From the NCBI GenBank assembly GCA_009773205.1, contig WPAE01000006.1:124001-188000 (forward strand): 64,000 nucleotides of DNA, read 5' to 3'. The stretch's first letter is position 1, and the number at the start of each line of letters is the position of its first letter. This document shows positions 4,771 through 62,821 of the stretch, piece after piece. The translations under genes and the position numbers were made by a program. A model generated the notes under the pieces. The model was not told the DNA's origin, made no database searches, and saw only the letters and a program-made list of their open reading frames with translations. The DNA is from Ignavibacteria bacterium. Its GTDB lineage: Bacteria > Bacteroidota > Ignavibacteria > Ignavibacteriales > Melioribacteraceae.

Positions 4771-6288
4771 GTGAGTAAGTACGCTTTAATAAGTGTATCG
4801 GATAAGACTAATGTTGTGGAATTTGCCCGCGAATTAAATCTTCTCAATTATCAAATAATTGCTACAGGCAACACACACAAACTGCTAATTGAAAATGCTG
4901 TTAGCTGCATTGAGATAAAAGAATTTACAAAGTTTCCGGAGATTTTTGAAGGTAGAGTTAAAACTCTTCATCCAAAAATTTTTGGAGGAATATTAATGCG
5001 TCGTAATCATATTACAGACCACGGCGAAGCAGAAAAAAACGAAATTGAAGCCATAGATATTGTTTGCGTTAATCTTTATCCTTTTCCAAAAGTAGTTGAT
5101 AGAGATGATTTTTCTCTCGATCAAAAAATAGAGAACATAGATATTGGCGGACCTAGTTTGATTAGAGCTTCTGCTAAAAATTATAAGTTTGTAAGCGTAC
5201 TAACAGATTCTTCTCAATACTCTAACTTTCTAACAGAATTGAGAAACGGCTCTATTAGTTTGGAAACAAGACAAAAACTTGCTTACGAAGCTTTTGCATA
5301 TACATCTTACTACGATACATTAATTGCAAATTATATAGAAAAAGAATTCAATCAGCCGAAGCTTGATTTCCGCTTAAACTTACAAGCCAACTTTGGTTTA
5401 CGCTACGGAGAAAACCCGCATCAAAAAGCTTATCTGTTTGGCAATTTTCATAAATATTTTGAAATACTTAGCGGGAAAGAATTAAGCTACAACAACATTG
5501 TGGATTTAGCGGCAGCAGTTGATTTGGTTGATGATTTGGATGCAACCGCTTGCGCAATTATTAAGCACACAAATCCTTGCGGCGCTGCTGTAGGTAAAAG
5601 CGTTTTGGATTCTTACGCAAAAGCGCTTTCGTGCGATAACGTTTCTGCCTTTGGCGGAATTGTCGCTTTCAACGCCGAAGTTGATGAAGCAACCGCTGAA
5701 AAGTTGAATGAAATATTCTTGGAGATAGTTGTTGCGCCTTCGTTCACAAAAAAAGCTTTGGAAATTTTAGCTGAAAAGAAGAATAGAAGAATTGTAAAAC
5801 AAAGAACTAAACTTTCGGAATCAGACGTTCAAATCAAGTCCGTGCCGGGCGGAGTTTTGATTCAAGAAAAGGACAATTCGAAGATATCTGAAATTGAATT
5901 AAAAGTTGTAACCGAAAAACAAGTGGATGAAGATCAGTTAGAAGATCTAAAAATTGCTTGGACAGTCTGCAAGCATACAAAATCAAATGCGATAATTTTT
6001 GTGAAAGATAAAAAAACAATTGGTGTTGGTGCCGGACAAATGTCGCGTGTGGATTCAGCCCGTTTAGCTTCAGAAAAAGCAAAGCAGTTTGGGCTTAATT
6101 TGAATGGCGCTGTTGCAGCATCCGATGCTTTCTTTCCATTTGCAGATGGATTAATTCAAATTGCAGAACAAGGAATTACAGCAGTAATTCAACCGGGCGG
6201 TTCTGTTCGTGATGATGAAGTTATTAAAGCAGCAAACGAAAAAAATATAGCAATGGTATTTACCGGAATAAGAAATTTTAAGCACTAA
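4771..6288 (+). CDS. purH: Bifunctional AICAR formyltransferase / IMP cyclohydrolase
   Basis: Catalyses the last two steps of IMP synthesis. The N-terminal MGS-like cyclohydrolase domain (about 1-190) begins ALISVSDKTNVVEFA. The C-terminal formyltransferase domain has the catalytic Lys265-His266 in KHTNPCGAA, and conserved RYGENPHQ and SDAFFPF motifs. 505 aa, full length. Start is GTG at 4771 with AGGATGGAG immediately upstream. mreB begins only eight bases after its stop, so the rod-shape operon may be read through from the purine promoter. Confidence 0.97.
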   Translation: MSKYALISVSDKTNVVEFARELNLLNYQIIATGNTHKLLIENAVSCIEIKEFTKFPEIFEGRVKTLHPKIFGGILMRRNHITDHGEAEKNEIEAIDIVCVNLYPFPKVVDRDDFSLDQKIENIDIGGPSLIRASAKNYKFVSVLTDSSQYSNFLTELRNGSISLETRQKLAYEAFAYTSYYDTLIANYIEKEFNQPKLDFRLNLQANFGLRYGENPHQKAYLFGNFHKYFEILSGKELSYNNIVDLAAAVDLVDDLDATACAIIKHTNPCGAAVGKSVLDSYAKALSCDNVSAFGGIVAFNAEVDEATAEKLNEIFLEIVVAPSFTKKALEILAEKKNRRIVKQRTKLSESDVQIKSVPGGVLIQEKDNSKISEIELKVVTEKQVDEDQLEDLKIAWTVCKHTKSNAIIFVKDKKTIGVGAGQMSRVDSARLASEKAKQFGLNLNGAVAASDAFFPFADGLIQIAEQGITAVIQPGGSVRDDEVIKAANEKNIAMVFTGIRNFKH

Positions 6289-6296
6289 GGAATTAC

Positions 6297-7322
6297 ATGG
6301 GTATTCTAGATTTTTTCTCTACAGATGTTGCAATTGATTTAGGAACTGCAAACACATTAATTTACATAAAAGGAAAAGGCATCGTACTAAACGAGCCATC
6401 AATAGTTGCGTTTGATAGAAACACAAAAAAGATTATTGAGCTTGGAAATAAAGCTAAAGAGATGCAAGGACGCGAGCATAGAGAGATTCGCGTTACGCGC
6501 CCAATGCGCGATGGCGTTATAGCAGATTTTGAAATTGCCGAGGGGATGATTCGGGCGTTTATTAAAATGGTTACTCCAAACACATTTCAAAGCAAACGAA
6601 TTGTTATTGCAGTTCCAAGCGGTGTAACAGAAGTAGAAAAACGAGCAGTGCGCGATGCAGCCGAACATGCCGGCGCAAAAGAAGTTCATTTAATTGCCGA
6701 ACCAATGGCTGCCGCTATTGGAATTGGCATTGATGTTGAAGCTCCGGTTGGCAATATGATTATTGATATTGGCGGCGGAACAACCGAGATTGCCGTAATT
6801 GCTCTTGCCGGAATTGTGAATGAAGAATCTGTCCGCATCGCAGGCGATGAAATGAATAATGCTATTATGCAGTTCTTCAAAAAAAATTACAACTTGTTAA
6901 TTGGCGAACGCACTGCAGAATCAATTAAATGTGAAGTAGGAAGCGCAGTTCCACTTAAAGAGGAAGTTACAATTCAAGTTAAAGGAAGAGATTTGGTTGG
7001 CGGAATTCCTAAAACTGCCGAAGTTAGCTCTGTTGAAATTCGCGAAGCATTGAATGAAAATGTTTCGCAGATTGTAGAAGCAATTAAACAAACTTTAGAA
7101 AGAACTCCACCTGAACTATCGGCTGATATTCTAGACCGCGGTGTAATGCTTAGCGGTGGCGGCGCGCTTCTTAAAGGATTGGATGAAAGAATTAGAATGG
7201 AAACAAATCTTCCCGTTCACGTTGCAGATGATCCATTAACCGCTGTTGTACGAGGCGCTGGTAAAGCAATCGAAAATATTAACAAATATTCTAAGGTCTT
7301 TATTCGTAAAAGAACTTATTAA
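6297..7322 (+). CDS. mreB: Rod shape-determining protein MreB (bacterial actin)
   Basis: Actin-like ATPase that forms membrane-bound filaments positioning the elongation wall-synthesis complex. Diagnostic motifs: phosphate-1 loop IDLGTANT (13-20), phosphate-2 IDIGGGTTEIAVI, and the adenosine motif SGGGALLKGL near the C-terminus. 341 aa, normal. Start ATG at 6297 with AAGGA upstream. It is first of the tightly packed mreBCD-mrdA-rodA cluster: its stop shares one base with the mreC start (TAATG). Confidence 0.98.
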   Translation: MGILDFFSTDVAIDLGTANTLIYIKGKGIVLNEPSIVAFDRNTKKIIELGNKAKEMQGREHREIRVTRPMRDGVIADFEIAEGMIRAFIKMVTPNTFQSKRIVIAVPSGVTEVEKRAVRDAAEHAGAKEVHLIAEPMAAAIGIGIDVEAPVGNMIIDIGGGTTEIAVIALAGIVNEESVRIAGDEMNNAIMQFFKKNYNLLIGERTAESIKCEVGSAVPLKEEVTIQVKGRDLVGGIPKTAEVSSVEIREALNENVSQIVEAIKQTLERTPPELSADILDRGVMLSGGGALLKGLDERIRMETNLPVHVADDPLTAVVRGAGKAIENINKYSKVFIRKRTY

Positions 7323-8155
7323 TGATAAAGAATTTTCAAAGACTTGGTAATCAATTCAAAGAATACGTTTTACTCGTAGTTCTTGTTGTTGTTAGTTTAA
7401 TCTCAATCTCTCTTAGTGAAAATCCTCAAGCAAAAAAATTAAAAGCTTTTGCATTATCAAACTTTGCTGTGTTGAGCGAACTGGCAGAATCGGGGTCTTC
7501 TATTTTCTCAAAAGATGTTTCGCTTGAAGAACTGAAACTTGAAAACGCTAAAATGACTTTGGAGTTAAGCAGACTCAAAAATGCTGCTTTAGAAAACGAC
7601 GAATTACGCAGAATGATAAATATGCGCGATACATCCACTATCCCGCTAATTCCTGTGCGTATTGTCTCTAAGCTGGCAACCAAAATTCAAGGTAATTATA
7701 TTGTAAACCGCGGTTCAAGCTCCGGCATAATTAAAGGTATGCCTGTAATTAATTATCAAGGTCTTGTTGGTTTAATTATGGATGTTTCCGTAGATTACTC
7801 TGTAGTAAGAAATTTGAACAACAGCGGTTTAAATATTGCAGTTACTTTACAGCGTTCAAATGTAGATGGTATCCTAAGCTTCGACGGACGAAACTTAGTA
7901 ATGAAAAATATTCCTACTACTTACGATGTTAAAGTTGGCGACAGGATAGAAACATCGGATTTCAGCTCACTTTTCCCTCCTTCAATTCCAGTTGGAAAAG
8001 TTGCAAAGAAAGAATCTAATGAACTTGGTTTACTTCATAGCTTAGTTGTAAAGCCATACGCTTCAATTGAAGCAGCAAGCAGTCTTTTTGTAATTGGAAT
8101 TGTTCCAAGTAAGCAAATCAATCAGCTTGAAATGAATTTGTTAAAGAAACCATGA
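7322..8155 (+). CDS. mreC: Rod shape-determining protein MreC
   Basis: Periplasmic scaffold of the elongasome that links MreB, MreD and PBP2/RodA. One N-terminal membrane anchor (about residues 14-32), a coiled coil (about 65-100, ELKLENAKMTLELSRLKN), then the paired beta-barrel domain (IVNRGSSSGIIKGMPVIN, VKVGDRIETSDFSSLFPPSIPVG). 277 aa. The start overlaps the mreB stop and the end overlaps mreD by four bases, implying translational coupling. Confidence 0.95.
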   Translation: MIKNFQRLGNQFKEYVLLVVLVVVSLISISLSENPQAKKLKAFALSNFAVLSELAESGSSIFSKDVSLEELKLENAKMTLELSRLKNAALENDELRRMINMRDTSTIPLIPVRIVSKLATKIQGNYIVNRGSSSGIIKGMPVINYQGLVGLIMDVSVDYSVVRNLNNSGLNIAVTLQRSNVDGILSFDGRNLVMKNIPTTYDVKVGDRIETSDFSSLFPPSIPVGKVAKKESNELGLLHSLVVKPYASIEAASSLFVIGIVPSKQINQLEMNLLKKP

Positions 8156-8637
8156 GCAACTTTTTAAAACCAATATTGTATTTCTTTCCTTTGCTAATAT
8201 TACAGCTTACAGTCATTCCACTTATTTCAATTTTTGGCGTGGGTCCTAATTTGATAATCATTACAGCAATCTATTATGCTTTGCATGGCGGTCAGATTTA
8301 CGGAATGATGCTCGGATTTCTCTTCGGTTTTTTCTTTGACTTGCTTTCAGGTGGAGTACTCGGCGCTTCTATGCTCTCGATGACAATCGCTGTTTTCATT
8401 GCTGGGTATTTCTACAATGAAAATAGGGTTGATAATAATACCGCCAGTTACTTTTTCTTGGTAATACTTTTTATTGCAGCTTTTATTAATTCATTAATAT
8501 ATTCTTTCGCCGGTAATTTTAACCCAGAAGTTCGCTTTTCAGCTTTGCTGTTAGAAGGCGCTTTACTTCCAGCTTGTTATACTACGGTTATTGGCTTGGC
8601 TGTTGTTGCATTCAAAATGAGAAATGGAAGACTATGA
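8152..8637 (+). CDS. mreD: Rod shape-determining protein MreD
   Basis: Small integral membrane protein of the elongasome, 161 aa, with five or six predicted hydrophobic helices (including PILYFFPLLILQLTVIPLI and the GMMLGFLFGFFFDLLSGG segment typical of MreD). Recognition rests on this profile plus its position between mreC and mrdA. ATGA overlaps couple it to both neighbours. Confidence 0.92.
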   Translation: MSNFLKPILYFFPLLILQLTVIPLISIFGVGPNLIIITAIYYALHGGQIYGMMLGFLFGFFFDLLSGGVLGASMLSMTIAVFIAGYFYNENRVDNNTASYFFLVILFIAAFINSLIYSFAGNFNPEVRFSALLLEGALLPACYTTVIGLAVVAFKMRNGRL

Positions 8638-10427
8638 ATGATAATGCGTTTGGCTCTCCAGCTAGAAAAAGAATATTGTCTATCATCATAATTGGTTTTG
8701 TTGCGCTGATTGTAGCTCAGCTTTTTAATATGCAGATTATTAATTCTCCAACCTATGCAGAGCGATCGGATGATAATAGCGTAAAGCCAATTTATCAAAC
8801 CGCTCCTCGCGGAATCTTGTTCGATAGAAATGGAGAAGTACTAGTTGGAAATAAACCTTCTTTCACACTCAGAATTACACCTTCAGATTATAAAGATTCT
8901 CTTTCGCCATACATAGAAAACATTTTAGGCGTTGACTCTGGCTATGTACGCCGTATTCTAAAAGCAAATGAAAACTACTCGAAATATATTCCACGAAGAA
9001 TTGCTAAGGATGTAAGTTTCAATGTAATGGCATGGTACGAAGAAAACGCTAGCAAACTTCCGGGTGTAGATTATGTGATGGAAACACAGCGCGATTATTC
9101 TTTTGGTGTTGCAGGCGCGCATATGTTTGGTTATGCACGAGAAATTCCTATGAGCATTCTTCAAAAAAGAAAAGACGAATATTCTTTGGGAGATGAAATT
9201 GGGCTTGCCGGTTTAGAAAAAACTTACGAAGATATTCTGCGAGGCAAAAAAGGAATTCATTATGTTCTAGTTGATTCAAGGCAAAAAACAATTGGCAAAT
9301 ACAAAAGCGGAGAGGAAGATTTTTCTGCCATAAAAGGTTATGATTTAATTCTAACAATTGACAAAGCGGCCCAAAAAGCTGCTGAAGAGGCATTTAAGGA
9401 TAGACGAGGAGCTTTAGTTGCAATAGAACCTTCAACTGGAGAAATCTTAGCTTTTATTAGTTCACCTCAATATAACCTGGAAGATTTTTCTAAAGTAACA
9501 ACTTTAGCTAATTATAATGCGCTTCGTAATAACCCAGATAAACCAATGCTAAACCGCGCAACAATGGGTTATTACTCTCCCGGCTCAACCTATAAAATGA
9601 TTACTGCAATTGCCGCCCTTGAAGAAGGAATTATTGACGAAGAAACAAAAATAGGCTGCAGCGGCGGTTTTCAATTTGGAGACCGGTTCTTCAAATGTTT
9701 ACACGTTCACGGAGCAACTGACGTTGGAACTTCTATAGAAAAATCTTGCAACACCTTTTATTATTCTCTTGTTAACAAACTCGGATTAGACAGATGGTCA
9801 ATCTATTCTAAGAAATTTGGGTTCGGTAAAAATAGCAATGTGGATCTAGCTGAAGAAAAAGATGGTATTGTTCCTTCATCTGAATATTATAACAAAAGAT
9901 ATGGCAAAAGAGGATGGACGAAAGGTTTTGTTATCAGCTTAGGCATTGGGCAGGGTGAACTTAGTGTTACACCTTTACAGCTTGCGCAATACACAGCACT
10001 CTTTGCAAATTTTGGCAAATCTGCTAAACCTCATTTTCTAAAATCTTATTCTGATTCAAAAACTAAGGTAAGAACTGAAGTTAAGCCAAGCTATTTTGAT
10101 ATCGGAATAAGCCGGCGTTCTTTTGAAATTGTTAGGCATGGAATGTGGCGTGTTGTTAACGGCGCTGGCACAGCAGGTAATATTCGAAATCCGGAATTAG
10201 ACATTTCTGGAAAAACAGGAACTGCTCAAAACCCGCATGGAGATAACCATGCTGTTTTTGTTGGCTTTGCTCCTTATGATAACCCTAAAATTGCCATAGC
10301 TGTAATAGTTGAAAATGCAGGATATGGAAGCGCATCTGCCGCTCCAATTGCCCGCGATGTGATTGCCGCTTATATGAGAAAGACAATTCCTAACCAGCAA
10401 AACAATGAAGTTGCACAAGTGCATTAA
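8634..10427 (+). CDS. mrdA: Penicillin-binding protein 2, elongation transpeptidase
   Basis: Class B PBP that cross-links peptidoglycan during side-wall growth with RodA. 597 aa: cytoplasmic tail and membrane anchor (about 12-34), pedestal domain ([19 protein letters not shown]), then the transpeptidase domain with Ser318-x-x-Lys321 (STYK), Ser371-Cys-Asn373 and Lys527-Thr-Gly-Thr530. I set the start at the ATG at 8634 (MNDNAF) because it overlaps the mreD stop as ATGA. An in-frame ATG 60 bases upstream would add a cysteine-rich stretch that is just mreD read in another frame. Confidence 0.96.
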
Positions 10428-49567: not shown

Positions 49568-50781
49568 ATGAAGAATTTCTTTATTGAGTTTGGGGAAGTT
49601 TTGGCAATAGCTCTTAGAGCAATTAGAGCCAATAAACTTAGATCGATTCTTACTACACTCGGAATTATTATCGGCATCGTTGCAGTTACTACAATGTCCA
49701 CTGCTATTGTTGGTTTGCGGGAAGCTTTTCTTTCCTCTATTTCTTCTTTAGGCAGCGATGTTCTTTACGTTAGTAAAACTCCATGGGCTACAATTGGTGA
49801 TTGGAGCCGCTACAGAAACCGCAAAGATATTACTCTTGATCATTACGAAAAGCTAAAATCTATAATTAAGAATTATGAAGCCATTGCGCCAACAATTTCT
49901 ACATTTGGAATGAAAGTTAAGCGCGGCTCTAAATCGCTTACTTCTACTGTCGTTTATGGTTCTACAGAAAACTTCCAGCGCACTTCACAAATAGAACTTG
50001 AGAACGGTAGATTTATGAACGAAATGGAAGTTGATGCCGGAAGAAAAGTTTGTATGATTGGGCAGGATATTGTAAACGAACTTTTCCCGTTTGAAAATCC
50101 GGTTAATCAAGATATTAGAATTAATAATGTGCCTTTTAACAAGGGAGTGGATTTTTAGGCTCGTTCAGTATGGATGGAATGATAATAATGCCGCTAAAAA
50201 CTTTTGAAACTGTTGCCGGAGAAGCAAGAGCAAGATTACGTATTGATATTAAAGTTGGCGATGTAGATAAACTTGAAGATGCAAAAGAAGAAGTAATTTC
50301 AGCAATGCGCGTTGTTCGCAAAGTTCCACCCGGCAAAGAAGATGATTTTGCCGTTAACCAGCAAGAAGCTTTCAAACAGATGTATGATCAAACTGTTGGC
50401 GTTATTGCTTATGCTGGTATTGTAATTACGGCGCTTTCTCTTTTTGTAGGCGCTATAGGTATTATGAACATCATGTTTGTTTCTGTAACCGAACGCACTA
50501 AAGAAATTGGAATACGCAAAGCTATTGGCGCTAAAACTTGGTCTATTCTATTACAGTTTTTAGTGGAAGCTGCTTTACTCTGCCTGCTTGGCGGGCTTAT
50601 CGGGCTTGTGGTTTCTTTCCCTATAAGTTTGATTGTAAATCAATTCTTGCCTACTTCATTACCTTGGACAGTGGCTGCAATGGCGCTTATCATCTCGGCA
50701 ATAGTTGGTGTTATATCTGGATTTTTACCTGCCTGGAAAGCTTCAAGATTAGACCCAGTAGATGCACTGAGGTACGAATAA
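49568..50781 (+). pseudogene. FtsX/MacB-type ABC permease 3, frameshifted
   Basis: Two halves of one permease. 49568-50158 ends NNVPFNKGVDF at a TAG; the family then continues in another frame, visible from QGSGFLGSFSMDGMIIMPL and on to the ALRYE terminus at 50781. Compared with permeases 1 and 2 (FKVVGVLEEQGS, LKVIGILESQGD), about seven codons are missing at the junction near 50139, best explained by a deletion of about 22 bp that shifts the frame. The rest of the protein (IMNIMFVSVTERTKEIGIRK) is well preserved, so the loss is recent or an assembly error. Confidence 0.85.
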
Positions 50782-53434: not shown

Positions 53435-53594
53435 TATTTGCTTTAGGTAAATCCTTTAGTATATTGTTTCATAAATAGTTAGAAATTTTTATGCTTTTTT
53501 TTCTAGTTTGGTTCGATAGTTGTCAATTATCACTAAGTCCTTTATTGGCAATTAAATTGTGGAAATAATTACTGAAATCTGGTTTGGAGCTAAC

Positions 53595-53975
53595 TTGGGA
53601 CAGCAACAACTTCTTCTTATAGTTTTAGGAATTTTAGTGGTTGGTATGGCTGTATTTGTTGGTATTTCACTTTTTAGAGCAAGTGCAATAGAAAGTAAGA
53701 GAGCAATAATAACTAATGAACTGGTCAACTTGGCGGCAATGGCACAGCAATATTATTTAAAACCAAGTTCTCTTGGCGGCGGAAATAGAAAATTTACTGG
53801 CTGGGTTATACCACCAGAATTACTTAATACAGCAGCTGGGCATTACACGGTTAACATCTTTCAAGATAGTGCAATAATTTCTGGAATTGGGAACGAAGTA
53901 GTAACAAACAATGATTCTTTGAAAATGCAGATTAATGTAAGACATGGTTCATATAAAACAATAATCATCAATTAA
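53595..53975 (+). CDS. Type IV pilin-like protein 1, non-canonical N-terminus
   Basis: 126 aa. Starts (M/L)GQQQLLLIVLGILVVGM: a leader of at most two residues followed at once by a hydrophobic helix (about 6-27), then a polar alpha stretch (SKRAIITNELVNLAAMAQQYY) and a small beta-rich head containing GGGNRKFTGW and SGIGNEV. The pilin layout is clear, but the GFTLIE signature and the Glu at mature position 5 are absent. TTG 53595 is chosen because it aligns with the ATG of the paralogue at 53991 and has GGAG five bases upstream; GTG 53559 is the longer alternative. Next gene is 15 bp on. Confidence 0.7.
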   Translation: MGQQQLLLIVLGILVVGMAVFVGISLFRASAIESKRAIITNELVNLAAMAQQYYLKPSSLGGGNRKFTGWVIPPELLNTAAGHYTVNIFQDSAIISGIGNEVVTNNDSLKMQINVRHGSYKTIIIN

Positions 53976-53990
53976 CAAAAGGAGAAACAA

Positions 53991-54377
53991 ATGGGTCAGC
54001 AGCAATTATTACTTATCGTATTAGGCGTTATCATTGTTGGTATAGCCGTAGTAGTTGGTATTAATGTATTTACAGCAAGCAGTTCACAAGCCAACAGAGA
54101 TGCAGTAACAGCAGATTTAACAAACTTAGCAAGCTTAGCTCACACTTATTACAGAAAACCAACTGCGTTAGCTGGCGGTGGAAATACATTTACTGGCTGG
54201 ACGGTACCTGCTCCTATTGATACAACAGGTAATGGAAGATATACTGCAACAGTCGGAGCTCAATCTGTAACTATAGTTGGTATTGGAAATGAAACCGGAA
54301 ATGATGGTACTGGAAAGGTCCAAGTTACAATGATTGTTGGACCAGATAAAATTACATCAACTACTGTAAATAATTAG
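53991..54377 (+). CDS. Type IV pilin-like protein 2, non-canonical N-terminus
   Basis: 128 aa paralogue of the preceding gene: MGQQQLLLIVLGVIIVGIAV, then ASLAHTYYRKP, the shared GGGNTFTGW and VGIGNET motifs, and a Thr-rich tail. Strong ribosome site (AAAGGAGAAAC before ATG). An intrinsic terminator follows, so the two pilin genes can be transcribed apart from the machinery. This copy is the better candidate for a major subunit, because of its strong translation signal. Flp-type pilin or an unrelated small membrane protein are alternatives; the pil genes downstream favour a pilin. Confidence 0.72.
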   Translation: MGQQQLLLIVLGVIIVGIAVVVGINVFTASSSQANRDAVTADLTNLASLAHTYYRKPTALAGGGNTFTGWTVPAPIDTTGNGRYTATVGAQSVTIVGIGNETGNDGTGKVQVTMIVGPDKITSTTVNN

Positions 54378-54452: not shown

Positions 54453-55796
54453 ATGGTTGAAGTAAGATTTACAGCTATCAAAAATAATGGACAGATAATT
54501 AGCGGAACGCTGACCGAGCCCTCTTTTTCTCTAGCAAAAAAGAAAGTACGCAAACTTGTTGAGAAAAATCAACTTAAAATTCAAAGTATTGAAAAAAAAG
54601 TTACTTATCTATATAAAATCAAAAAAGGAAAAGAAAAGCCAATAGCTGGCGAGCAGAGAGCATTTAACAAAGAAGAAGTTGCCAGCGCTCTTAGAAAATT
54701 GGGCTACGAAGTTGTTTCCATTAACAGAAAACTTTTTGAACTTGCTTCGAAACCACCACAGCAAGAAATAGTTTCTTTTGTAAAGATTAGCGCTGAACTG
54801 CTCGAACAGAAACTTCCTTATTCAGAAATATTAACATTGCTTATCAGCGATATTCAGAATAAAACACTTAAAGAAACATTGAAGCAGATAAACAACGAGT
54901 TAAAAAGAGGTGCAGACAGCGAAGCTGTATTTTTACGTTATCAATCGATCTTTGGAAAGTTTACTGCATATATGCTTGGGTTAGCATCTAAGAGCGGTAA
55001 TATGACGGAAATTTATAAAGCAACAGCAAAGTTCTTAGAGCGGCAGCAAGAATTTAAGAAGAATATGAAGAGCGCTTTAATATCTCCTATGGTTACAATT
55101 TTTATTTTAATGTTAGCAGTACTTTTTTATGTCGGCTATATTTTTCCAGAAACAGCTAAACTCTTTGTAAAATTCAAAATTGAATTACCGCCTATGACGG
55201 CATTTACTCTTGCTCTGAGTGATTTTCTTACTAACAATCTTGTTTCGGTTTTACTGTTTATGATTATTCCACCAATTATTCTTATTAGGTTAGCCAAAAC
55301 TAAAAAGGGCAAGTTGTTGGTGGATAAGTACATTATGAAAATACCTATTATGGGTCCACTAATTCATAAGACCAACATAGAAGTTTTTTGTAGAGTATTT
55401 TATACTTTATACAGCGGCTCGGCAGAAAGTATAGAGCCAATTAGAATAGCGGCCGAGGCAACCGATAACGATTACTTTGAGCAAAGAATTAAAAATGTTG
55501 CAATACCTATGATGATTAAACGCGGTATTGGTATTACAGAAGCGTTTGAAGCAAGTGGTGTTTTTACCGAAACTGCTATTTCAAGATTTCACTCCGGCGA
55601 AGAAACCGGAACAATAAAAAATACTGCTTTACAGTTAGCAAATTATTATGAAAGCGAAACTGTATATCGCTTGAAAAATATTATAGAAATGATTCAAGTT
55701 TTTATTGCTATGATAATTATGATTGTAATGATTGGATTAACTTTGGTTTCAGCAGAAACAGCTACAATAAGCCCTAAACCACCTGTAATGAATTAA
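54453..55796 (+). CDS. pilC: Type IV pilus inner-membrane platform protein PilC/GspF-like
   Basis: 447 aa. The N-terminal 110 residues are a divergent charged region; then two T2SSF repeats (about 110-235 and 300-425), each with the helical bundle preceding a membrane segment. Three membrane helices are seen (SPMVTIFILMLAVLFYVGYI, LVSVLLFMIIPPIILIRL, VFIAMIIMIVMIGLTLV). The platform anchors the assembly and retraction ATPases that follow. Start ATG 54453 lies just after the terminator. Symbol given by role; GspF is equally valid by sequence. Confidence 0.88.
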   Translation: MVEVRFTAIKNNGQIISGTLTEPSFSLAKKKVRKLVEKNQLKIQSIEKKVTYLYKIKKGKEKPIAGEQRAFNKEEVASALRKLGYEVVSINRKLFELASKPPQQEIVSFVKISAELLEQKLPYSEILTLLISDIQNKTLKETLKQINNELKRGADSEAVFLRYQSIFGKFTAYMLGLASKSGNMTEIYKATAKFLERQQEFKKNMKSALISPMVTIFILMLAVLFYVGYIFPETAKLFVKFKIELPPMTAFTLALSDFLTNNLVSVLLFMIIPPIILIRLAKTKKGKLLVDKYIMKIPIMGPLIHKTNIEVFCRVFYTLYSGSAESIEPIRIAAEATDNDYFEQRIKNVAIPMMIKRGIGITEAFEASGVFTETAISRFHSGEETGTIKNTALQLANYYESETVYRLKNIIEMIQVFIAMIIMIVMIGLTLVSAETATISPKPPVMN

Positions 55797-55806
55797 GGAA
55801 AGTTAG

Positions 55807-57594
55807 ATGTTAGAAGCTCAACTTGAAATGACAGATAAGATTGGTTACTTACTTCTTAAGAAAGGAATAATTGATCTTAAGATTTTGGAACAAGCTCTAA
55901 AAATAAAAGATTCAGATCAAGCAAAGCTGAAAAGAAACTTAGCTCAAATATTGGTTGATGAGTTTGAGTTTGATCACGATATAATTTTTAGGGAAGTTGC
56001 AGTTTTATATGCTTTCAAAGAATTAAACTTTCCTATAGAAGAACTTCCAGAAGAAAGAATAGCTGAAATGAAAAATATGATGACTAAGCAGGGTGAAGAA
56101 ATCAAAAAGCTCCTGCTGGAACATCGTGTTATTCCATTCAAGTTTGATGATAAAATTCGTGATAAATTAATTCTTGCAGCAGTTGACCCTACAGATAGAG
56201 CTTTAGCAAAAATTGCTTACGCACTTAACATAAAAAAATTTGAAATAAACTATTTGCGTAAGAAAGATTATGAAAAGTTAATAGGTCTATTGATTTCTAC
56301 CGAAAACGAATTTCTAAAAATGATGCAGGAAAGCCACGAAGAAATTCATGTTGCCGAAGATGAGTCTTCGGTTAACGAAGAAGAGTTAGATGCAGAAATA
56401 AACAAGAGTGCTTTAATCAATTTGATTGAAGCTGCTTTAATTGAAGGTACACGCAGAGGCGTTAGCGATATTCACTTAATACCAAAATCCGGCAATAAAA
56501 CAGAAATACATTTTAGGTTGGATGGCAAACTTGCGCTCTGGCATACTCAAGAAAATACACTCCCCGAAGCTGTAATGGCTGTTGTTAAAGACCGTTCTAA
56601 AGGGATGGATAGATTTGAAAGAGAAAGAGCTCAGGATGGTTTTATTCAAAGAGAAATTGATGGACATATTATTCGCTTTCGTGTTTCTGTTCTTCCAACA
56701 GTTGGCACTGAACTAAAAAATAAATTTGAAAGCATTGTAATTAGAATTCTCGATGATAGAAAAGTTATAAAAGATTTAAGCAAACTTGGTTTAGTCGGCT
56801 ATTCTCAACAAGCATTTGTTAAAGCAATCTCTGCACCGCAAGGAATGATTATTCTAACCGGACCAACAGGCAGCGGTAAATCAACTACGCTAATTGCAGC
56901 TTTGTATCAAGTTATCAATCCAACTAAAAATGTTTTAACGGTAGAAGACCCAGTTGAGTACGTTATTGAAGGTGCGCGCCAGCTGAAGATTGGCTATAAA
57001 ATGAATTTTGAGCAGGCTATTAGATCAATTTTGCGCCACGACCCAGATATTGTTCTTGTTGGTGAAATGCGCGATAAAGAAACCGCCGAAACAGCTATTA
57101 AACTTGCTAACACAGGGCACTTAACTTTTTCTACACTTCATACAAACGATGCTCCAAGTGCAGTTGCACGATTGTACAAAATGGGTGTTGAACCTTTCTT
57201 GATTGCATACGCAATCAACATTATTGTAGCTCAGCGCCTTATCAGAAAATTGTGCGAGGTTTGCAAGAAAATAGTAATTAACATCGAAGAACATGTTTCA
57301 TTATCTGGCTTAGATCCAAAAGAATGGATTGGCAGCGAAATATTTGAGCACGTTGGCTGCGATAAATGCAATCAGACAGGTTACAAAGGCAGAATGGCTA
57401 TACACGAAGCACTTTACTTTACTAAGGAAGTTAGAAAGTTAATTGTGCACTCCGGCGAAGAAGTTGATGAAGAAGCTATTAGAGAGCAAGCAAGAAAAGA
57501 TGGAACTTTAAGTTTGCGAGATGCAGGCTTTCAAAAAGCAAAAATGGGCCTTACTTCTATTCATGAGGTAATTGGCGCAACTATGGAAGATTAA
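55807..57594 (+). CDS. pilB: Type IV pilus/type II secretion assembly ATPase PilB/GspE-like
   Basis: 595 aa. N-terminal MshEN-type domain (about 1-150), then the secretion ATPase core: Walker A GPTGSGKS (352-359), Asp box TVEDPVEYVIEGARQL, Walker B ILRHDPDIVLVGEMRD, His box STLHTNDAPSAVARL. A four-cysteine zinc module (CEVCKK and CDKCNQTGYKGR) typical of PilB/GspE follows. All catalytic motifs are present, so it should drive fibre extension. 11 bp after pilC. Confidence 0.95.
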   Translation: MLEAQLEMTDKIGYLLLKKGIIDLKILEQALKIKDSDQAKLKRNLAQILVDEFEFDHDIIFREVAVLYAFKELNFPIEELPEERIAEMKNMMTKQGEEIKKLLLEHRVIPFKFDDKIRDKLILAAVDPTDRALAKIAYALNIKKFEINYLRKKDYEKLIGLLISTENEFLKMMQESHEEIHVAEDESSVNEEELDAEINKSALINLIEAALIEGTRRGVSDIHLIPKSGNKTEIHFRLDGKLALWHTQENTLPEAVMAVVKDRSKGMDRFERERAQDGFIQREIDGHIIRFRVSVLPTVGTELKNKFESIVIRILDDRKVIKDLSKLGLVGYSQQAFVKAISAPQGMIILTGPTGSGKSTTLIAALYQVINPTKNVLTVEDPVEYVIEGARQLKIGYKMNFEQAIRSILRHDPDIVLVGEMRDKETAETAIKLANTGHLTFSTLHTNDAPSAVARLYKMGVEPFLIAYAINIIVAQRLIRKLCEVCKKIVINIEEHVSLSGLDPKEWIGSEIFEHVGCDKCNQTGYKGRMAIHEALYFTKEVRKLIVHSGEEVDEEAIREQARKDGTLSLRDAGFQKAKMGLTSIHEVIGATMED

Positions 57595-57845: not shown

Positions 57846-59072
57846 ATGATATCTGAAGCAAAACAAATATTAACTGCATTTGCCTCACTCGTTCCTTCTA
57901 CTGTTTTGGGAGCAGAGAGAGTTCGTTACATTGCAGAGCATATACAAGAATTACAAATAGATCATAAGCTGATGCTTTTGAATTTGCTTAATAATATTTT
58001 AGCTGCAATGATTGACCGGCAGGCATCCGATGTTGAAATTGGCGGCTTTGGCGCACAGAACTCTGTTTGGTTCAGAATTTTTGGCAAAAAAGAAAGAGTT
58101 TTAGATTTACCACAATTTAGTGAAGATGAAGCTTCAACGCTAATTATTTCGATTCTCAATAAAAACCAAATTGCAGCACTTCTAGAAAACAGAAATTTAG
58201 ATTTTAGTTATACTTTTAAGTATGATAAAATTCAGAAGCAATTAAGATTTAGGTGCGATGCATACTTTGATCTTGACAGCATTACAATGAATATGAGAGC
58301 AATTCAAGCGAGCATTCGTCCTTTAGAAAGTTTGGATTTTCATCCTTTTGCAGTAAAGATTATGAGCCATAACTATATCAAGTTTGGGCTTTCGCTTGTA
58401 ACCGGCATTACCGGCTCAGGCAAATCTACCACTCTTGATGCGATAATAGATTTCCACAATGATTTTGACCAGAGCCATATTGTAATAATTGCTTCGCCTA
58501 TAGAGTTTGTTCACCGCTCTAAAAAAGCAATAATAAAACATAGAGAAGTTGGCAAAGATGTTCCTTCTTTTAAGGATGGTGTAATTCAATCACTTCGCCA
58601 AGACCCAGATATAATTGTAATTGGAGAAATGCGCGACCCTGAAACTATATTAGCAGCGCTTGAAGTTACGGATACAGGACACAAAGTCTTTTCAACTCTT
58701 CATACATCAAGTGCTGTAGAATCTATTGATAGAATTATCGCAGAAGTTCATCCTAACGAGCAAGAACGTGTCCGAAACCGCTTGGCAGACGTTTTAATTT
58801 CTGTTGTCTCTCAAAAATTAGTCCCAAGTCTCGATGGTAAACGTGTATTAGCAAAAGAAGTGTTAATTGTAACGCCGAGTGTAAGAGCGGCAATAAAGAA
58901 CAATAATACAAGTGAAATTTACATGATGATTAACCAAGGCGGTCCACAAGGCATGGTTACTATGGAACAAGATTTGCTAAGGTTATTCACAGAGAGAAAA
59001 ATATCGAAAGAAAATGCTATTTCTTATGCAAATAATAAAACAAGAATACTACAGTTGATGAAGGGCAATTAA
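57846..59072 (+). CDS. pilT: PilT-family retraction ATPase
   Basis: 408 aa. PilT-type N-terminal domain (about 40-150), Walker A GITGSGKS (187-194), Asp box region HREVGKDVPSFKDGV, Walker B LRQDPDIIVIGEMRD, and His box STLHTSSAVESIDRI. The PilT-specific AIRNLIRE motif is not obvious (ASYANNKT-like end instead), and the protein is longer than typical PilT (about 345 aa), with an extra N-terminal 40 residues. It would depolymerise the fibre, giving a dynamic pilus; assignment as PilT versus PilU is open. Confidence 0.88.
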   Translation: MISEAKQILTAFASLVPSTVLGAERVRYIAEHIQELQIDHKLMLLNLLNNILAAMIDRQASDVEIGGFGAQNSVWFRIFGKKERVLDLPQFSEDEASTLIISILNKNQIAALLENRNLDFSYTFKYDKIQKQLRFRCDAYFDLDSITMNMRAIQASIRPLESLDFHPFAVKIMSHNYIKFGLSLVTGITGSGKSTTLDAIIDFHNDFDQSHIVIIASPIEFVHRSKKAIIKHREVGKDVPSFKDGVIQSLRQDPDIIVIGEMRDPETILAALEVTDTGHKVFSTLHTSSAVESIDRIIAEVHPNEQERVRNRLADVLISVVSQKLVPSLDGKRVLAKEVLIVTPSVRAAIKNNNTSEIYMMINQGGPQGMVTMEQDLLRLFTERKISKENAISYANNKTRILQLMKGN

Positions 59073-59074
59073 TT

Positions 59075-60658
59075 TTGAAACCGATTGTTTGCCTATACTG
59101 CGAAGGAACAGACGCAAAAATTGCCGTTCTTTTAAAAGATAAAACCGGCATAAAAATTTTGCGTACTGCCTCGCTTACTTTGAGCAGAGTTTCTCAATTA
59201 TCTGGCGCGCATGGCAGAACAACAGCGTTGGCTGAAATTGAAAAACAAGCAATGGGCAGCTTAACTGCTGATGAGCTTGGTTTTGATGCTTTAGATGCAG
59301 CAGATGGAATAAGCCCGCAGCGTGATCTTGAAGATGCTTCGGATGTGGCATCTTTCAACGCTGCGTTAAAAGGGTTACAAGTTACAAAAATGGATTACAT
59401 TCCAATTGTAACAGAACCAATTGTTAATTATCATCATTACGAAGGCGCTCCGGGAAGCAATAAGAAAAAATTAATTCAATATGTAATTGCAGATATTCAT
59501 TCAACCAAAGGCATAACAGTTGAACCGGACCTAATTGATGTAGTTAGTACAAATGATAACTCGGTACTAGGGTTGTTCCTTGAAGGAGATATTAACTGCA
59601 TTGGACTTGTAAATCAGTTAGCAAATTTGAATAACAAGCGCTTTCTAAAAATTCCTACTATAAAATGTTCTGAACTTGCGCTTTCCTATTATGTTTCAAA
59701 AACAACTAAGTTTTTTCCAGAAGATTTTTCTTTAATTGTTTATATAGGTAAAGAATACAGCAAGCTTATTTTCTTAGAAGGGCAAAAACTTAAGCATATT
59801 GGAAGTACTTTAGATATTGGGACAAAAAACTTACATACGTACGATGTTTATTTCTCCAAAATTTTGTTGGAGATGGAAAACGGGGCAATTCCTAAGTTAG
59901 ATAATATTATTATCTGCGGAGAAGACCGTTCAGAAAATTTGATTCTTTCATTCTTCGGCACATTTCCAGAAGCAAATGTAACCGAGCTGAAATTCGAAAA
60001 TTTTGATACAAGTAATCTAAAGGAAGAAGAAGCACATAACTTAGCTTTATATGCAATGCCAATATCTGTTGGAGTTGAATATTTTGATGAGCTCTCTAAG
60101 CAGCATACGGGCGCTAACTTTTTACCAAAATATGTTCTAGAAAATCAAAAAACATTTCAGTTTGCTTGGCACGGCTATTTATTGGCAGTTCTTTTGTTTG
60201 CAGCAACTTTGTTCTTTACAATTGATATACTAGATAATGTTAAGGTTCTTAAAGACAAAGATTACGAAATAGAAAGATTAATGCAGCGCAAATCCTTAGA
60301 TCAATCTCTTGTTGATGAAATTAACCCGCTGGCGGCAAGAATAAATACTTTCGATGCTACACAAGGAATTATTGATTCTGCAGCAATTGGATCCGGTCTT
60401 TGGAATAAAAATCTGTCTAAACTATCGGATTTTATTGAAAGAAGAAGAAGCTTTTGGTTTACTAAAATCGAGCCTGCAAATCCTGAAGAATTAAAACTTT
60501 CTGGTTTTTCTTTATCAAGAAGTGTATTGACTGAATTTGCCGAGCAAAACAAATCCTCTATTCTTAAAAATATACATTACGAACCGCTACGCGAGAAAAG
60601 TGCTTTCTCATTCTCTATGGATTACAGAATTGAAGGAGACACTTCAAAGGTAAAATGA
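59075..60658 (+). CDS. PilM-PilN-like fusion, pilus alignment subcomplex
   Basis: 527 aa. The first 340 residues look like a divergent actin-like PilM domain (LCYCEGTDAKIAVL-type start; SLIVYIGKEYSKLIFLEGQKL with the phosphate-loop-like glycine). A membrane helix (about 366-388, LLAVLLFAATLFFTIDIL) is followed by a short coiled coil and a ferredoxin-like C-terminal domain, the plan of PilN/GspL-C. Normally PilM and PilN are two proteins that bind through the N-terminal tail of PilN; GspL is the fused equivalent in type II secretion. Start TTG 59075, two bases after pilT. Homology is inferred mainly from layout and synteny. Confidence 0.68.
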   Translation: MKPIVCLYCEGTDAKIAVLLKDKTGIKILRTASLTLSRVSQLSGAHGRTTALAEIEKQAMGSLTADELGFDALDAADGISPQRDLEDASDVASFNAALKGLQVTKMDYIPIVTEPIVNYHHYEGAPGSNKKKLIQYVIADIHSTKGITVEPDLIDVVSTNDNSVLGLFLEGDINCIGLVNQLANLNNKRFLKIPTIKCSELALSYYVSKTTKFFPEDFSLIVYIGKEYSKLIFLEGQKLKHIGSTLDIGTKNLHTYDVYFSKILLEMENGAIPKLDNIIICGEDRSENLILSFFGTFPEANVTELKFENFDTSNLKEEEAHNLALYAMPISVGVEYFDELSKQHTGANFLPKYVLENQKTFQFAWHGYLLAVLLFAATLFFTIDILDNVKVLKDKDYEIERLMQRKSLDQSLVDEINPLAARINTFDATQGIIDSAAIGSGLWNKNLSKLSDFIERRRSFWFTKIEPANPEELKLSGFSLSRSVLTEFAEQNKSSILKNIHYEPLREKSAFSFSMDYRIEGDTSKVK

Positions 60659-61551
60659 GTACGAAAACAAAAAATACTATCATTATAGCTGTAATTCTCA
60701 TAGTTATAGTACTCTCAGCAGGGGTTTATGATTTTATTTTTCAAAAAAATAAAATCGAAGAAAAGGAACAGCAAATAAAAGAGCTTACTCAATATCAATA
60801 TGATACTAAAGTTTTAGAAAGCCAATTAGCCAGCATGAAAGTGAAGATTGGTCAGTTGGATTCTATACTTGCAAACAGAAAGTATGCAATTCCAGTAAAC
60901 ATATCTCAAGCAAATTTTTTCGAGTTTGTTAATAAAGTAAGCTATAGCTTTTCTTCGGATTCTTATGTCAATATCGAATATGTTGATATGGAGACTTTCC
61001 CGAACTTTAACATCTACAATTATAATATATTTGGAATTGCACGGTACGCTGATTTTTACCGGTTGATTTACGGTATAGAAGAAAGTAAGAATCTCAAAAA
61101 AGTTGTTAATGTTGAGCTCTCGAGTAATGTTAAAGTTGATGAAGAGGGAATACCTGTTTACTTAGTTAATTATAAATTTAATGCTAAGGTTTACTTTTCA
61201 AGCGATGATAGATTCTCGTTTAAGGGTGGAACTGAAAATTCGCTTGTTCCTAATCAGGCTTATGATATTTTTTATCCTCTTGTAAGAAACGAAATTCCGC
61301 CGAACATTAATGCTCTGCTCGATGTACAATCTGCCCAGCTATTGGCGTTAATACCAGATGGCGCATTTTTATCTGATGCAAGCGGAAACACTTACTTGCT
61401 TTGGGAAGGAGATAAAATCTATTTAGGATATTTGACGAATATTGATTACTTAAACAACCGTGTAAATTTTGTATTGAACAAAGGCGGCGTAATTGAAAAT
61501 GTTTCACTTCAACTACAAAAAGAAAAGAAAGAGAATAAGACAGGCAAATAA
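60655..61551 (+). CDS. PilO-like pilus alignment protein
   Basis: 298 aa. One N-terminal membrane helix (about 8-28, TIIIAVILIVIVLSAGVYDFI), a coiled coil (about 33-75), a ferredoxin-like domain, and a C-terminal extension (SGNTYLLWEGDKIYLGYLTN) resembling a PilP-type beta domain. PilO pairs with PilN in the periplasm and PilP links to the secretin, so this protein may combine both. Overlaps the PilM-PilN gene by four bases. Low sequence identity families; call rests on order and architecture. Confidence 0.62.
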   Translation: MSTKTKNTIIIAVILIVIVLSAGVYDFIFQKNKIEEKEQQIKELTQYQYDTKVLESQLASMKVKIGQLDSILANRKYAIPVNISQANFFEFVNKVSYSFSSDSYVNIEYVDMETFPNFNIYNYNIFGIARYADFYRLIYGIEESKNLKKVVNVELSSNVKVDEEGIPVYLVNYKFNAKVYFSSDDRFSFKGGTENSLVPNQAYDIFYPLVRNEIPPNINALLDVQSAQLLALIPDGAFLSDASGNTYLLWEGDKIYLGYLTNIDYLNNRVNFVLNKGGVIENVSLQLQKEKKENKTGK

Positions 61552-61552
61552 A

Positions 61553-62821
61553 ATGAAAAAGATTTTGATAATGCTCGTACTTCTTGGGCTCACATTTCCG
61601 GCGTTTGCCCAAATTGATTTTAAAGATAAGTTGAAAGGTTCTGTAAACCCTGAAGAAATTGTTTCTCTTTCAGAATCTTTGCCGTTCAATCAAGCAGTAG
61701 AAGTTTTAAGCAAGGTAAGCGAAAAGCTTACCGGGAAAAAAATAGTTTCTTTAGCGCCTATCACTACTCCTATTGGTGTTGAAATTGATAAGATGCAATA
61801 TAAAAAAGCACTCTTCATAATTGTGCAGTATCTTAATCTTGTAGTTGATGAAACAGAAATGAATATAGTTGTTAGAAAGAAAGATGCTTCTAAAGAAGCA
61901 TTAACCAAAGATGTTTATGTGCCTGTTACAGAAAGGGAAGTAAAAATTTCTGCGCTGATATTTGAAGCCAACACAAAGGATATGACAGAGCGGGGTGTAA
62001 ACTGGGAATATTTTTTATCGCGTTCCGGTTTAAGTATTGGAGGTAAAATTGTAACATCTCAAACTGCATCTGTAAATCAAAATTCCAATGCGGGCACTCA
62101 AAACCCGCCAGAGTTTAGCATAACGCCTAAGATAGATTTTACGATGGGGAAGTTTGATGGAACTGCAACCGGTTTATTCAGATTTTTTGAAACAGAAAAC
62201 CTTGGAAAAATTTTATCTAGACCAACAATATCTACGGTTAATGGAGTCCAAGGAAGAACACAAGTTGGTTCTGAGTTTTCTATTAAGGAAAGAGATTTTG
62301 CCGGCAATCTAATTGATAAATTCTATCAGAGCGGAACTATTATCGAAGTTACTCCGCACATCATTAACGAAGATGGCGTGGATTATGTGCTTTGCAAAGT
62401 CAAGATTGAAAAAAGTACGGTAATTCCGGGTGCTATTACAACAGAAAAACCTAAAACTGAAGTTACAACATCCTTGCTTTTGCTCAACGGAGAAGAAGCT
62501 GCAATTGGCGGATTGTTAGTAAATGATGTTACAATAGAGAGAAGAGGAGTTCCAATATTAAAAGACTTACCGTGGTGGGTACTTGGTTTACGTTACTTAT
62601 TTGGCTACGATGCTCAGACAGAATCTACTAAAGAGATTATAACTTTACTTAAAGTTGAAATTTTGCCTTCTCTAAAAGATAGATTGAATGTTAAAAAGAC
62701 TGATTTACTAAGAAAAGAGATTATAAACCAGCAAAACGAAATGAAAAATTTTAAGGACCAGGTTAAAAATGCAAGTTCGGAATTAAAAGAAAAGGAGAAA
62801 TTAGAAGAAGAAAATAATTAA
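61553..62821 (+). CDS. Short secretin, PilQ/GspD-like outer membrane channel
   Basis: 422 aa with a signal peptide (ending FPAFAQ). One N-domain (about 30-115) precedes the secretin domain (EVKISALIFEANTKDMTERG, LSRPTISTVNGVQGRTQVGSE, then VTTSLLLLNGEEAAIGGLLVND and RGVPILKDLPWW). These are the conserved secretin and gate motifs. It is shorter than PilQ or GspD (600-750 aa) because the usual multiple N-domains are missing. The C-terminal tail is a charged coiled coil. ATG 61553 is chosen since the signal peptide starts there; the frame upstream would overlap the PilO-like gene. Confidence 0.88.
   Translation: MKKILIMLVLLGLTFPAFAQIDFKDKLKGSVNPEEIVSLSESLPFNQAVEVLSKVSEKLTGKKIVSLAPITTPIGVEIDKMQYKKALFIIVQYLNLVVDETEMNIVVRKKDASKEALTKDVYVPVTEREVKISALIFEANTKDMTERGVNWEYFLSRSGLSIGGKIVTSQTASVNQNSNAGTQNPPEFSITPKIDFTMGKFDGTATGLFRFFETENLGKILSRPTISTVNGVQGRTQVGSEFSIKERDFAGNLIDKFYQSGTIIEVTPHIINEDGVDYVLCKVKIEKSTVIPGAITTEKPKTEVTTSLLLLNGEEAAIGGLLVNDVTIERRGVPILKDLPWWVLGLRYLFGYDAQTESTKEIITLLKVEILPSLKDRLNVKKTDLLRKEIINQQNEMKNFKDQVKNASSELKEKEKLEEENN

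Follow-up and report, generated by a model that had tools for sequence, protein, structure and literature searches.

Predicted leaderless pilins in a type IV pilus-like locus of Ignavibacteria, from genomes that usually appear to lack a prepilin peptidase gene

The 64,000-nucleotide stretch of contig WPAE01000006.1 from an Ignavibacteria bacterium of the Melioribacteraceae that we analyzed (hereafter, the window) carries a type IV pilus-like locus with the gene order pilA1-pilA2-pilC-pilB-pilT-pilMN-pilOP-pilQ (Table 1). It opens with two tandem genes, pilA1 and pilA2, for pilin-like proteins that seem to be made without a leader peptide. Their deduced N-termini, (L/M)GQQQLLLIVLGILVVG for PilA1 and MGQQQLLLIVLGVIIVG for PilA2, both read (L/M)GQQQLLLIVLG, and about 5-6 bases upstream of each start codon lies a GGAG sequence (tttGGAGctaacTTG for pilA1, aaaGGAGaaacaaATG for pilA2). 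The two proteins also have in common a head of the form GGG..(F)TGW....GIGNE. Neither contains GFxxxE or an acidic residue near its start, and neither is matched by the N_methyl motif of canonical prepilins (PF07963). An earlier, sequence-only reading of this DNA had described these starts, the missing GFxxxE and Glu at +5, and the shared head, and had placed the pair in a full type IV pilus-like locus; we confirmed all of this in both open reading frames (ORFs), with pilC, pilB, pilT, genes for PilN- and PilO-like proteins and a secretin gene following the pilins.

About 200 homologues were collected, which stem from Ignavibacteria and Kryptonia as well as from families of the phylum that are only distantly related. 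In the fetched loci, 197 homologous frames begin with M/V/L-G-x-Q-Q(-L), using ATG (159), TTG (22) or GTG (16) as start codon. This start is conserved far beyond chance, as 91 sequences less than 80% identical to each other show no variation at M1, G2, Q4, Q5 and L7; none of these 91 non-redundant homologues carries an acidic residue within positions 1-12. In 15 distinct genes a stop codon stands immediately 5' of the start codon, which excludes a leader, and most other homologues leave room for merely 1-9 upstream residues, which are unconserved and bear a Shine-Dalgarno-like AGGAG ribosome-binding site. The homologues from other families of the phylum possess the same start, with the exception of two partner pilins (MANKEIIII and MGNRELLL) that are leaderless as well. 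These two (locus L159, near 9556, and locus L150, near 2030) have an acidic residue at position 5. A class III leader ending in Gly-1, as in canonical prepilins, was found neither in the window pilins nor in those of the distant families.

An in-frame GTG at position 53559, 12 codons upstream of pilA1, would lengthen the protein by 12 residues and speaks for a misjudged start. We disfavor it as the true start because the upstream residues are unconserved in relatives and often absent. For most members of the family, distant families and the I, J and K proteins described below included, a hidden leader is refuted by the stops next to the start codons. That the whole pattern is an artefact, produced by leaders overlooked upstream or by peptidase genes missed in incomplete assemblies, is in our judgment extremely improbable, given the 15 genes with adjoining stops, the unconserved upstream residues, and the lack of the peptidase from single-contig genomes as well (see below). 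A third paralogue, located elsewhere in the genome of the window, likewise has a stop codon immediately 5' of its ATG. This paralogue (MGSQQLLLVVVG...; locus L178, G000:C467, 5597-7697, plus strand) lies in an apparent operon with genes whose names were assigned by sequence look only, one for an extracytoplasmic-function (ECF)-sigma-like protein (5983-6492) and one for a FecR/anti-sigma-like protein (6489-7697); we searched for ECF-sigma/anti-sigma neighbors near lone pilins in other genomes and found none.

An AlphaFold2 model of PilA2, built from the 91 sequences, predicts a helix spanning residues 3-55 followed by a four-stranded sheet (predicted local distance difference test [pLDDT] 86; predicted template modeling score [pTM] 0.68), and thus the N-terminal helix of about 50 residues with a beta-sheet head on which the sequence-only reading had made its proposal depend. 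Four of the six weak matches in a profile search of the PDB are type IV pilins (expectation values [E] 0.08-0.58). The ungapped profile alignments to GspG (44 residues) and PilE1 are offset by three, so that canonical residue 1 corresponds to Gln4, the canonical Glu at +5 to Leu8, and residue 14 to Gly17. When the 91 homologues were scanned against Pfam and NCBIfam, we obtained one weak match to PilE_C (E 0.0015) among other hits scattered at chance level. The identity of these proteins as pilins rests on their predicted architecture, their register and their locus taken together.

Every type IV pilus, type II secretion system (T2SS), archaellum and competence pilus described to date is regarded as dependent on a prepilin peptidase, an enzyme of the A24 family. 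The genome from which the window derives (4.14 Mb; 99.95% complete) gave no match at E<=1 to Peptidase_A24 (PF01478) or to N_methyl, models that matched 12 and 10, respectively, of 14 control genomes. We screened 396 genomes of the phylum. Pilins were detected in 131 of them, and 130 were retained after a weak match (G001, E 0.003), which a larger profile does not find, had been dropped. Among these 130 pilin-bearing genomes, 113 had no A24 match at E<=0.01, two had sub-threshold matches and 15 were over the cut-off; the A24-less genomes include ten consisting of a single contig (G003, G030, G073, G124, G132, G179, G188, G236, G295 and G303), a finding by which assembly gaps can be rejected as the cause. 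Twenty of the 24 named genomes that possess the locus, among them that of Kryptonium thompsonii, have no A24 over the cut-off.

A divergent A24 enzyme missed by Pfam was considered and rejected. For this purpose, the A24 proteins that occur in pilin-bearing relatives were combined into a profile, which recovered five of five positive controls and detected no A24 gene in the genome of the window. In 75 A24-negative genomes, of which ten consist of a single contig, the profile returned nothing credible; its faint hits there are short fragments and, with one exception, lie in frames interrupted by stops. Presence of MGQQQ pilins and absence of A24 are not associated as such across the phylum (Fisher p 0.75), since A24 is missing from most of the phylum in any case. 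More can be learned by comparing A24 with N_methyl inside the pilin-bearing set: canonical N_methyl pilins occur in all 15 genomes with A24 over the cut-off versus 3 of the 115 other pilin-bearing genomes (Fisher p 5e-17). In each of the 15 genomes, no more than about 1.3 kb separates the A24 gene from an N_methyl (GFxxxE) pilin gene, and the MGQQQ pilins, where positions are given, are found either on a different contig or at a distance of 50 kb or more. Judged from this arrangement, these A24 enzymes most likely belong to a different system.

These data also bear on the suggestion of the sequence-only reading that the subunits are processed with a Met-Gly leader. Cleavage by an unknown peptidase outside the A24 family, exposing Gln at +1, would be in keeping with the near invariance of Gly2 and Gln3-Gln5, as would be expected of a recognition site, and with the Gln at +1 of some archaeal pilins. 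Most of the genomes lack A24, however, no extra conserved gene accompanies the locus, canonical residue 1 falls on Gln4 and not on Gln3 when the helix is aligned with solved pilins, and the I and J families have no single cleavage motif in common, position 2 being occupied by N, S, Q or G. We therefore consider such processing unlikely. The proposal that the pair forms the structural subunits of an unusual fibre fares better, as it gains from the predicted pilin architecture and from the position of the pilin gene directly upstream of pilC in 65 of the 84 loci with room for it. Although the remaining 19 loci represent lone extra pilins, the homologues are not consistently located away from pil genes.

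Downstream of the pilins, an assembly ATPase and a platform protein adjoin, as in type IVa pili, and a PilT is encoded as well. The profile of PilMN matches Myxococcus PilN (3jc8; E 7e-7) over profile positions 363-480, and PF05137 (PilN) is recognized in four members; the N-terminal part of the protein has no profile match and would correspond to PilM, judging from its position and appearance. Likewise, the C-terminal part of PilOP has no profile match and may correspond to PilP, which it resembles. With regard to the alignment complex and the secretin, PilN-like and PilO-like parts and the secretin are hence present, and the PilM and PilP parts are unmatched. The order C-B-T-MN-OP-Q recurs unchanged in 43 of the 54 homologous loci that include pilC and offer 9 kb or more of downstream sequence; the gene set of the remaining 11 is truncated, in most cases because the fetched sequence stops too early or larger gaps lie in between. 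No conserved additional gene was seen in this comparison. In several distant members, a gene for a protein that looks cyclic-nucleotide-binding-like by its sequence lies between pilB and pilT (L157, 4444-4944; L160, 13404-13940; L162, 13543-14082; L170, 3405-3920).

Such a gene set might also form a short pseudopilus that secretes proteins, either T2SS-like or similar to the divergent Bacteroidetes 'T2SS' of Cytophaga, instead of a long retractable pilus. The secretin matches the MshL, GspD and PilQ models about equally, and Denise et al. (2019) note that the Bacteroidetes 'T2SS', whose major pilin is very divergent, branches with the type IVa pili (PMC6668835). The PilT of the window, however, scores above the curated cut-off of the retraction family, and pilT is part of the order conserved in 43 of 54 loci. 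Since T2SS are not known to possess PilT, the presence and conservation of this gene disfavor a secretion pseudopilus, and we hold it to be improbable.

Table 1. Genes of the pilus-like locus in the window and the I-J-K cluster found elsewhere in the same genome.
Feature	Position	Strand	Description
pilA1	53595..53975	+	Putative leaderless pilin; TTG start; LGQQQLLLIVLG...; 126 aa; GGAG 5 bases before TTG; 46% identical to PilA2
pilA2	53991..54377	+	Putative leaderless pilin; ATG start; MGQQQLLLIVLG...; 128 aa
pilC	54453..55796	+	Inner-membrane platform protein (T2SSF); PF00482 E 3e-27; below equivalog cut-offs
pilB	55807..57594	+	Assembly ATPase with MshEN-like N-terminus; PF00437 E 1e-101; TIGR02538 407 bits, under the equivalog cut-off of 675.65
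pilT	57846..59072	+	Retraction ATPase; TIGR01420 331 bits, above the curated cut-off of 319
pilMN	59075..60658	+	N-terminal part in PilM position fused to PilN-like part; transmembrane segment near 375
pilOP	60655..61551	+	PilO-like; profile versus Myxococcus PilO (3jc8) E 0.005
pilQ	61553..62821	+	Secretin with its own signal peptide (MKKILIMLVLLGLTFPAFAQ); PF00263 E 5e-21; MshL, GspD and PilQ models all below cut-off
I, J, tandem K1 and K2	L177 (G000:C436) 5635-9030	-	Pilin-like cluster on a contig other than that of the main locus

Upstream of this locus, a gene for a MacB-like ATP-binding cassette (ABC) permease (49568-50781) appears split between two ORFs that differ in reading frame (49568-50158 and 50170-50781), which suggests a frameshift or a sequencing error.

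Three further leaderless pilin-like families, which we designate I, J and K after their order, are encoded between pilB and pilT in distant members and in a separate cluster in Ignavibacteria. I proteins frequently start with M-x-x-x-Q and contain the motif F-D-D-x-D-D-Y-N; J proteins start with M...L-D..G and show L-E-x-D-L after the helix; K proteins frequently start with M-G-K/R. In J and K, a stop mostly lies 1-7 codons before the start codon, and in the genome of the window the I, J, K1 and K2 genes have 2, 4, 1 and 3 codons, respectively, before a stop. The J family has retained an acidic residue near position 6, and 21 of its 24 members carry one within positions 1-12, where the major pilins have none. 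An AlphaFold2 model of J comprises a helix (residues 2-57) and a beta head (pLDDT 94), and its profile weakly matches the Thermus pilin-like protein TTHA1219 (E 0.72). The order of the three genes and the L-E-x-D-L of J are reminiscent of the minor subunits of the mannose-sensitive hemagglutinin (MSH) pilus and T2SS (GspG-K; PilV-W-X-like). None of the three families, by contrast, significantly matches a minor pilin of known structure, and Pfam and NCBIfam scans assigned them to no family. Order and layout suggest that they may be equated with GspI, GspJ and GspK, and they probably form a priming tip.

The leaderless starts, the conserved locus, the predicted pilin architecture and the absence of A24, all computed from the genomes, lead us to the view that the two proteins are pilins of a variant of the type IVa pilus whose subunits have no leader peptide and are made at their mature length; we assign this a probability of roughly 0.78. 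Translation would begin directly at the membrane helix, and at most the initiator Met would be removed, for which Gly2 is favorable with regard to methionine aminopeptidase. The helix would insert as an uncleaved N-terminal anchor, from which PilB, PilC and PilMNOP would extract and stack the subunits, probably with the leaderless I, J and K proteins as the priming tip. The fibre would leave through the secretin PilQ and be retracted by PilT. The A24 peptidase, and with it N-methylation of a new N-terminus, would be dispensable and is usually absent. We also think it probable, though with slightly less assurance, that an entire branch of type IV filaments does without prepilin processing. Major and minor subunits alike would be synthesized at their final length, the start codon would take the place of PilD in defining the N-terminus, and the major pilin would use neither Glu5 nor N-methylation.

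Several observations weigh against the interpretation as leaderless pilins. The mean net charge over residues 1-8 of the pilins is 0; because the N-terminus carries no positive charge, the positive-inside rule does not account for the N-in/C-out orientation that a pilin requires. Pilin models of Pfam and NCBIfam do not match PilA1 or PilA2, and no PDB profile match is significant by itself (E >= 0.08). Foldseek searches of the pilin model against the PDB and viral libraries returned nothing significant, the best hit being an Acinetobacter type IV pilus (E 0.36), and the J model likewise gave no significant hit with this program, which matched it to no pseudopilin. The fibre, its processing, topology and assembly are predicted from genomes.

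Some archaeal type IV pilins have Gln at +1, and the Gln-rich start of the mature helix is a likeness to the proteins studied here. Archaeal pilins, however, possess leaders and a PibD-type A24 peptidase, neither of which is found here. With type IVa pili the system shares a single operon for the platform protein, assembly and retraction ATPases, PilN- and PilO-like proteins and secretin, and pilins with a predicted helix and beta head. It differs from them by the lack of a leader, of Glu5 and of GFxxxE, by the absence of PilD from the locus and usually from the genome, by the apparent fusion of PilM with PilN and of PilO with PilP, and by pilins that Pfam and NCBIfam do not match.

Denise et al. 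(2019) regard the prepilin peptidase as a key component of the type IV filament superfamily that was probably present in the ancestral system (PMC6668835). MSH loci may borrow the peptidase of another system in the same genome (PMC6668835), whereas the genome of the window has none to lend. In a relative, Melioribacter roseus, pilT, pilQ, pilB and pilC were reported in 2013, while pilA and pilD were not found and the set was thought to be probably incomplete (PMC3534657). The locus as such is therefore not undescribed, as the sequence-only reading had supposed; what we did not find described is the leaderless, peptidase-free explanation. The open-licence PMC literature, which leaves subscription papers and preprints outside, yielded no paper on leaderless or peptidase-free type IV pili, and priority cannot be claimed on this basis. 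In contrast to the M. roseus report, the pilins are identified here and the missing pilD is seen to be the rule, which offers an explanation for the genes missed in that organism.

Taken from its genomes, a large bacterial group appears to build type IV pilus-like fibres from leaderless subunits, usually without a peptidase gene. If this is true, leader cleavage, Glu5 and PilD are not universal requirements for type IV filaments. It would explain genomes that were reported to possess pilT, pilQ, pilB and pilC but neither pilA nor pilD. A widespread leaderless and peptidase-free system would demonstrate that subunits can be extracted without the cut and that Glu5 is replaceable, and it raises the question why other systems cleave their pilins at all.
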